Assembly (NCBI GenBank): GCA_018816555.1
Contig: JAHIVT010000084.1
Coordinates: 1-37,604, forward strand
DNA from: Pseudomonadota bacterium
GTDB lineage: Bacteria > Desulfobacterota > Desulfobulbia > Desulfobulbales > SURF-16
Direction of reading: 5' to 3'
Length of the DNA: 37,604 nucleotides
Below the pieces are notes generated by a model. The model made no database searches and was not told the DNA's origin. It worked only from the letters and a program-made list of their open reading frames with translations. Position numbers and translations under genes: made by a program. This document shows positions 19,356-20,864 of this stretch, piece by piece; position 1 is the stretch's first letter; the number at the start of each line of letters is the position of its first letter.

Positions 19356-20864
19356 ATGGCTGCTCGAAATAAAGAAAGAGATGAGCTCGCAGCTGGTTTT
19401 GATAGCATATTTGATGCTGCACCCACTCCATCTTCCCTTTCCCTGGAAAAGGCACAAAAGCTGTTGGCTGAAATCGATTCCCTACCCGACGACTCTGTTA
19501 AATCCAATATTTGCATAAACCGTTTTGGACTAACATTATTTGAGGTCCAGGCTATCGCCCATGGTGACAATGAAAGCTCTTCATCCGAGGATTTCACCCA
19601 TGCGCCACCTAATGGTGTAACCGGTACGCCACTCAACGGTGAGACCATTGAGTATGATCCCGACCCAGCCGTTACACAGCCAGCCAAACCGATCGTTACG
19701 CAACCTACTGACGCAACCGTTATTCAAAACAAAGGCGTAACCGCTACGCAATATCCAGGCACAACCTATACACCAATTACTGGCGTACCCGCTACGCCAC
19801 AATATGGCGCAACGGGGGCGCAAATCCATCTTTCTTTTAATACACTTGGCACATTATTACGCAGTGAAAATCAAATCAAAGTCTTTGTTTTTCTCTATGA
19901 CAGGTTACACACAATCCCCCAAGGGATGATTTTGCTTATTTCCGCTACAGAAATAGCCTCAATCCTAGACCTTTCCCTTCATACAGCTCGCAAAATTATC
20001 CCCAGTCTTATCGATAAAAATCTGATTTCAGTTACTCCATTAACCCGCGAAGAGAAGAAGGTGAAGCAGGGTTATAAGATGAATGCCACCTCGCTTGGTA
20101 TGGCATTATATTCGGAGCTGAAGAGAGAGATTAACTACGGCGCAACGGTTACGCCATTAAGTGGCATAACCGTTGCGCCACCTAGCGGTGTACCCCCTAA
20201 AAAAGCAACTGTTACACCGTTATACCCCTTACCCGTTGCGCCCTCCAATGGTGCACCAATAAGTTGTAGTGGTTTTTTTAATAACACACCACAACCTGAT
20301 GCTACACCACCAAGCCTACCCCTTGACGATCTGCTGGAAAGGCTGGATTTGACAGAATGGGAAAAACTGGATTCTGGAATGCTCGTTGCGTATATCCAAA
20401 AGGGAAGGGAGTGGATCCAGGATATCCTGGATGGAACCGCAGCGGCCATAGAGTATAAAAAGAGATTGGCTGCAGAAAATCCCGAAAAGCAATATAACCT
20501 CATAACAATGCCATTCCGGTTTTTAAAGAGCAATCTGGCAAACGGCTATGTGGATACACCACCGGGATGGAAAACAAGAAAACAAAAAGCCATGGAGACT
20601 GAGCTTGCGAGAGTTCAGAAAGACGTAGAACTGGCATTCCAGCTTCAGGCAGCAAGAAAGAAAAGGGAAGAGGGGATTTTGATGCTCCAAATAGAAGAGA
20701 TGCTCGCCAATCCTTCTGGAGACCTTTTTAAAAAAATAAAAAACCTTATCCCTGAAAAAGAATTACAAAACATGCAAAATCTCAATATTGCTGAAGGTCA
20801 CCCTGCCTTTAATAAACTAATGGAAAGATACTTCAAAGTTCATTTGGGAATAGCAGAAGAGTAG
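19356..20864 (+). CDS. Winged-helix protein with internal palindrome arrays; putative partition or replication protein
   Basis: 502-aa protein not matched to a named family. Residues 1-80 are helical. A wHTH lies at about 165-250 (RSENQIKVFVFLYDRL, LLISATEIASILDLSLHTAR, KIIPSLIDKNLISV). It is flanked by two low-complexity segments (about 85-155 and 262-310) of repeated G-V-T-x-T-P peptides. The C-terminal 190 residues are helical or coiled-coil (ETELARVQKDVELAFQLQAA). The DNA of the low-complexity segments is a series of palindromes around TGGCGTAACC half-sites. It follows parA1 directly (GAGG site), so it may be the centromere-binding partner. An initiator with in-gene iterons, as in lambda O, is the alternative. 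Confidence 0.6.
   Translation: MAARNKERDELAAGFDSIFDAAPTPSSLSLEKAQKLLAEIDSLPDDSVKSNICINRFGLTLFEVQAIAHGDNESSSSEDFTHAPPNGVTGTPLNGETIEYDPDPAVTQPAKPIVTQPTDATVIQNKGVTATQYPGTTYTPITGVPATPQYGATGAQIHLSFNTLGTLLRSENQIKVFVFLYDRLHTIPQGMILLISATEIASILDLSLHTARKIIPSLIDKNLISVTPLTREEKKVKQGYKMNATSLGMALYSELKREINYGATVTPLSGITVAPPSGVPPKKATVTPLYPLPVAPSNGAPISCSGFFNNTPQPDATPPSLPLDDLLERLDLTEWEKLDSGMLVAYIQKGREWIQDILDGTAAAIEYKKRLAAENPEKQYNLITMPFRFLKSNLANGYVDTPPGWKTRKQKAMETELARVQKDVELAFQLQAARKKREEGILMLQIEEMLANPSGDLFKKIKNLIPEKELQNMQNLNIAEGHPAFNKLMERYFKVHLGIAEE
19605..20256. repeat. In-gene palindromes, consensus TGGCGTAACC half-sites
   Basis: Cluster 1 (19613-19825) includes TGGTGTAACCGGTACGCCA, AGGCGTAACCGCTACGCAA, TGGCGTACCCGCTACGCCA and TGGCGCAACGGGGGCGCAA. 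Cluster 2 (20137-20256) includes CGGCGCAACGGTTACGCCA and TGGCATAACCGTTGCGCCA plus degenerate copies. Units are spaced about 24 or 48 bp in places and all lie in one reading phase (G-V-T-A-T-P). The two-fold symmetry is not required by the peptide and suggests selection as DNA-binding sites. Confidence 0.65.

Follow-up and report, generated by a model that had tools for sequence, protein, structure and literature searches.

A ParA-linked wHTH gene of sulfate-reducer plasmids carries nested site arrays and probably doubles as origin, centromere or both

The gene at 19356..20864 (+ strand) of the window, i.e. the whole 37.6-kb stretch of DNA analysed here, which is one complete contig (G000:C137), encodes a 502-aa wHTH protein with homologues among the ParA partners of sulfate-reducer plasmids. 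Its coding sequence contains arrays of palindromes that look like binding sites for this protein. At least 13 related plasmids repeat the arrangement with other site sequences, and so the gene probably doubles as an origin, a centromere or both. Our preferred reading, to which we give little more than an even chance, is that of a plasmid-maintenance cassette whose nested arrays act as the origin of a ParA-linked replicon, with the same complex serving in partition.

The upstream gene of the module, parA1 (18497..19342, +), encodes a Walker-type partition ATPase of 281 aa (Pfam AAA_31, E 3.6e-40; PHROG ParA-like, E 1.4e-55) and is separated from the wHTH gene by a gap of 14 bp. An HU-family gene (17759-18106, minus strand) lies divergent from parA1, and HU genes were also seen near the ParA-wHTH module in BuS5, pDsulf-L2-1 and G115. 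A Pfam scan of the 502-aa protein gave no family over the cut-off, and HTH_45/DnaD_N as weak matches. Its wHTH is encoded at 19839..20129 (+; about residues 162-258), as placed by the family alignment and by a profile search of the PDB, which returned wHTH chains including MarR/Lrp and AspA at E 0.001-0.02. A conserved helical C-terminal domain (20313..20861, +; about residues 320-502) was delimited by the family alignment and by its match to a G115 protein (E 2e-8). AlphaFold yielded only poor models (mean pLDDT 39.5 and 48.1), and Foldseek found no significant structural match for them; the best plasmid-protein wHTH neighbours in the PDB were AspA, the centromere-binding protein of pNOB8, and TubR, at a generic wHTH level that is not significant.

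The initial annotation had placed about ten palindromes inside this gene. They are real, and all fall within the ORF, one cluster on each side of the wHTH-coding part, but ten was a generous count: four or five qualify as good palindromes, and the remainder are degenerate half-sites. The palindrome has a degenerate 19-bp form, TGGCGTAAC-N-GTTACGCCA, set in a 24-bp register. Cluster 1 (19589..19828), upstream of the wHTH-coding part, comprises ten consecutive 24-bp units with zero indels, about six of them clear and some decayed. Cluster 2 (20138..20257), downstream of it, holds four to five units, off register towards its end, and includes 18-bp arms (20139-20156/20162-20179) that are 94% complementary. 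The 19-bp consensus (≤ 3 mismatches) gave nine strand matches at five places, every one of them in the gene, whereas 100 shuffles yielded no match; the half-site GGYGYAACSG (≤ 1 mismatch) matched 34 times versus 8.85 expected, an approximately fourfold excess (largest shuffle, 15). Palindrome-type sites form no cluster elsewhere on the window contig, upstream of parA1 included.

Full-length tblastn of the window protein gave no match in plasmids, phages or genome contigs. Relatives were reached by a class-wide search, which found G115, and by a phylum search, which found G615 and, through it, the complete plasmids. In all, 15 more loci were collected, and almost every one sits on a plasmid or plasmid-like contig of a sulfate reducer. 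Complete plasmids of Desulfosarcina, Solidesulfovibrio, Desulfohalobium, Desulfobaculum, Desulfolutivibrio, Nitratidesulfovibrio and Desulforapulum carry the module, as does a contig of Solidesulfovibrio aerotolerans, and two copies each are present on pDMC1 and pDCAR1. ParA lies directly upstream at 15 of the 16 loci, the exception being G615, a broken contig with an IS21-type helper gene in that position. G115 belongs to the same order but a different family; the gene behind its ParA encodes a 438-aa protein that resembles the window protein in its C-terminal domain, and the in-gene array there flanks the wHTH and differs in sequence from that of the window.

The partner proteins range from 360 to 1125 aa; the 1125-aa member on Nitratidesulfovibrio vulgaris pDsulf-L2-1 (L140:1217-4594) has hundreds of repeat-encoded residues ahead of the wHTH. 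For the partner genes L139:1154-2149, L141 and L142, public annotations cut or miss 5′ parts, and the frames extend almost to ParA. A wHTH gene of G272 (L113:676-1797) lacks an adjoining ParA, contains about five in-gene palindromes of the AAAGGATACGAATCATACCCTTT type and matches the family profile weakly in its C-terminal part (hhalign probability 79%). The nearest ParA relatives in the class proved to be mostly chromosomal and without adjoining arrays. Family queries found no relative among viral contigs, where the window DNA consensus gave scattered single sites only. On Lawsonia intracellularis plasmid 3, a wHTH ParA partner (L062:3310-4806) with a long Ser/Thr/Gln-rich N-terminus is without a DNA array, which counts against our preferred reading; it is possibly a distant relative whose sites were lost or moved.

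Arrays lie on both sides of the wHTH in nearly all loci, and their sequence differs by lineage: having arrays is a family trait, and the array sequence is not. Units of 8-13 bp occur in up to 29 copies. Over synonymous shuffles, periods of 13/26 bp were found in pDCAR1, pDRET01, D. bizertense, pDsulf-L2-2 and S. aerotolerans, of 12/24 bp in G615 and the Desulfolutivibrio plasmids, of 11/22 bp in BuS5 and of 8/16/24 bp in pHRM2a and G115; the array of pDsulf-L2-1 is irregular. The tandem-period signal reached z 5-14 in most homologues and was weaker in D. ovata, pDMC2 and the window (24-bp lag, z 1.7); for the window, the inverted-repeat test is the relevant one. On the plasmids checked, array 8-mers cluster strongly within the gene, e.g. 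ACCGCTCA with ten copies in the pDRET01 gene and none in the other 44 kb, and CTAGACCA with 11 in the gene of the D. sulfoxidireducens plasmid and none elsewhere; the exceptions are D. sulfodismutans and the window, whose sites are too degenerate for exact 8-mers to reveal it. What seemed to be a second cluster of sites on the D. bizertense plasmid turned out to be two scattered ones.

In most members the second array is directly followed by an AT-rich inverted repeat, such as AGATAGATAGAGAATCTATCTATCT in pDRET01 and GTAGTAGTATTTTAAATACTACTAC in G115, and the residues that it encodes differ between lineages. In 10 of the 14 genes tested it was stronger than in synonymous shuffles (p ≤ 0.024), and it was weak in BuS5, D. 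bizertense, D. sulfodismutans and the window, where the imperfect copy lies at 20262..20296 (p = 0.14). The combined p-value is optimistic, because the AT-rich segments were picked by eye after inspection.

Could the repeats have been selected solely as disordered linker peptides, with the DNA symmetry as a by-product? The peptide repeat of the window is regular and flanks a folded domain, and its initial reading as GVTATP-like units of 8 aa was correct. In addition, pDCAR1 and pDMC1, the only close pair available, show no evident synonymous conservation in the arrays (7 of 18 synonymous changes fell there versus 5.5 expected). However, when the protein was held fixed and synonymous codons were permuted (n = 1000), the 61.5 reverse-complement 8-mer pairs of the wHTH gene were reached by none of the shuffles (26.4 ± 6.7), and parA1 had no inverted-repeat excess. 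The two palindrome arms also differ in codon choice: for Val, 4/4 left arms have GTA and 7/7 right arms GTT, and for Thr, 6/8 left versus 0/8 right arms have ACC (p about 0.003 each, hypergeometric count). Moreover, the 8-, 11- and 13-bp periods of the homologues shift the reading frame with every unit, so that peptide repetition cannot maintain them; periods indivisible by three mean that the DNA is under selection. A purely peptide-level origin of the repeats is thereby already contradicted, and we hold it to be very improbable. Loss of DNA symmetry with retention of the peptide repeats had been named at the outset as the pattern that would speak against a DNA function, and the homologues display the reverse, since their arrays persist while the peptides change. 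That the in-gene repeats have a function as DNA is well supported, and so is a protein/site cassette next to parA. The arrays might still be no more than operators that repress or roadblock their own gene, with no role as origin or centromere. Their confinement to the gene would fit, and partition and initiator genes are commonly autoregulated, but hundreds of base pairs of tandem in-gene sites past the promoter far exceed the needs of repression and no array precedes parA1, which makes this explanation improbable.

The more serious alternative is a centromere only: the wHTH protein would be the centromere-binding protein, the arrays would be parS, ParA1 would segregate, and replication would fall to other proteins, such as the Rep_3 that the window owns. 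The ParA linkage, the absence of ParB from 11 of the 12 complete plasmids with the module (ParB_N is present in one), the many short units and the AspA/TubR wHTH neighbours favour a centromere. Units of 8-13 bp in many copies are closer to centromeres than to typical 17-22-bp iterons, and the ParR, TubR and omega centromeres consist of many short tandem units. A precedent exists in SCP2 ParT, with a single parS inside parT (PMC12260392). A centromere alone, however, would leave several complete plasmids without a recognisable initiator. Rep_3 was found in 1 of the 12 and RPA over the cut-off in none, and no initiator is annotated on pDMC2, pDRET01 or the D. sulfodismutans and D. bizertense plasmids, nor in the parts of pDMC1 that were read; initiators of other kinds could be hidden among hypothetical proteins. 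It would also leave unexplained the AT-rich inverted repeat and the GC-skew minima, which lie 0.1-1.9 kb from the gene (gene masked) on pDMC2, pDRET01 and the D. sulfodismutans and D. bizertense plasmids; of these four, D. bizertense alone has a skew amplitude that passes a block-shuffle test. No such minimum lies near the gene on pDMC1 or on plasmids with other replication candidates, including the window. Some plasmids would, furthermore, hold two partition systems; ParA/RHH-type partition genes also occur in the window, the D. sulfoxidireducens plasmid and pDRET01. The separate Rep_3 of the window and of the D. sulfoxidireducens plasmid counts against an origin, while the missing other initiator on most complete plasmids, the AT-rich inverted repeat and the four skew minima favour one. 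Origin and centromere roles are compatible and both are favoured, with the origin slightly ahead of a centromere alone, a solution that we regard as possible, though clearly short of even odds.

The window itself has the appearance of a conjugative plasmid: it carries type IV secretion-like genes, TraL, a MOBP relaxase, a Rep_3 initiator and ParA-like and RHH-like genes. Rep_3 (28952-30178, minus strand), the ParA-like gene (31022-31675) and the small RHH-like gene directly after it (31674-31928) make up a second replication/partition locus (28952-31928). Together with the GC-skew minimum of the window, at 30901 beside Rep_3, this locus suggests that the window is a cointegrate of two replicons; a resolvase gene (27107-27655) lies between the parA1 module and the Rep_3 locus. 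Given Rep_3 and the second partition locus, the window copy of the wHTH cassette may be secondary: it may be the second replicon of a cointegrate or have only partition duty here. Plasmids with a related Rep_3 encode canonical ParA-ParB in place of the module.

For the combined origin and partition cassette that we prefer, we propose the following mechanism. The wHTH protein, expressed from the ParA operon, would bind through its central wHTH to half-sites of about 12 bp that flank the wHTH-coding segment in alternating orientation, and would so build a nucleoprotein array on the head-to-head half-sites of its own gene, the arrays presumably being translated as pliable linkers. This array would fire replication as a nested origin, in the manner of RepA_N, RepC and lambda O. 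The adjoining AT-rich element may open, and the C-terminal domain may recruit a helicase or primase, by analogy to RepA_N and DnaD (PMC5703833). Co-transcribed ParA would act on the same complex for partition, contacting the wHTH protein possibly via a short N-terminal motif such as SLADRLR, the like of which was seen by eye in some family members. More tentatively, and with rather less than even confidence, the family may represent a novel Thermodesulfobacteriota replicon class, in which one wHTH protein is both initiator and ParA partner and one nested array both origin and centromere. Placement of the arrays in disordered linkers would then leave site sequence and period (8 to 13 bp) free to turn over and, if this holds, the turnover would yield new incompatibility groups. 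Many sulfate-reducer plasmids not assigned by typing tools, pDMC1, pDMC2 and N. vulgaris plasmids among them, may have in this cassette the replication/partition locus that they seemed to lack, and it would furnish replicons for genetic work in such hosts. The family offers a natural series in which protein, site and reading frame coevolve within a single gene, and it would become testable whether one nested cassette can house both initiator and centromere functions.

Gene-nested sites are not new in principle, as lambda O, pSK41-type RepA_N, repC and SCP2 ParT illustrate. The apparent novelty lies in the present family of wHTH ParA partners, for which Pfam has no model, and in its long nested arrays, free to change in sequence and period; searches of an open-access library turned up no account of it, which is no proof of absence. 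The lambda O initiator gene contains palindromic sites and AT-rich DNA, and the present gene resembles it in both. Unlike our module, lambda has no ParA; site unit and copy number differ, and the profile similarity is weak (phrog_678, E 0.0073 in 3 of 16 members; phrog_345, E 0.0021 in 2 of 16), as are the DnaD-like profile matches. AspA and TubR are likewise wHTH centromere-binding proteins, but their centromeres lie outside the gene. ParA1 is the ATPase expected of type I ParABS, and Pfam scans of the wHTH partners found no ParB_N CTPase domain. In type Ib systems (ParF/ParG), the partner is a small RHH protein, whereas here it is far larger and has a wHTH. A Rep3_N match, as in Rep_3 initiators, was absent from the 502-aa protein.

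In pSK41 Rep (RepA_N), binding sites lie inside the rep gene and the sequence over them serves as a linker (PMC5703833). Our family shares with RepA_N a wHTH protein with a helical C-terminal domain and in-gene sites, whose origin role is putative in our family, and differs in its central rather than N-terminal wHTH and in its many short units in place of four Rep boxes; nine members scanned against Pfam at E ≤ 0.1-1 gave no match to the RepA_N domain (PF06970). In repABC, the A+T-rich oriV lies inside repC, and silent mutations abolish replication (PMC3155836). A ParA-type gene upstream and an A+T-rich origin, here putative, within the initiator gene are common to both, but repC has no iterons and is accompanied by a ParB (RepB) gene, whereas our loci have prominent arrays and no ParB. 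In the ParA-ParT-parS system of Streptomyces SCP2, parS lies inside parT (PMC12260392). ParT has a ParB-like HTH M domain, a single 18-bp site, which is an inverted repeat, and a different C-terminal domain, as opposed to the MarR/Lrp-type wHTH and long arrays described here, and shares with our family the principle of a ParA partner with its cognate site, here predicted, in its own coding sequence.
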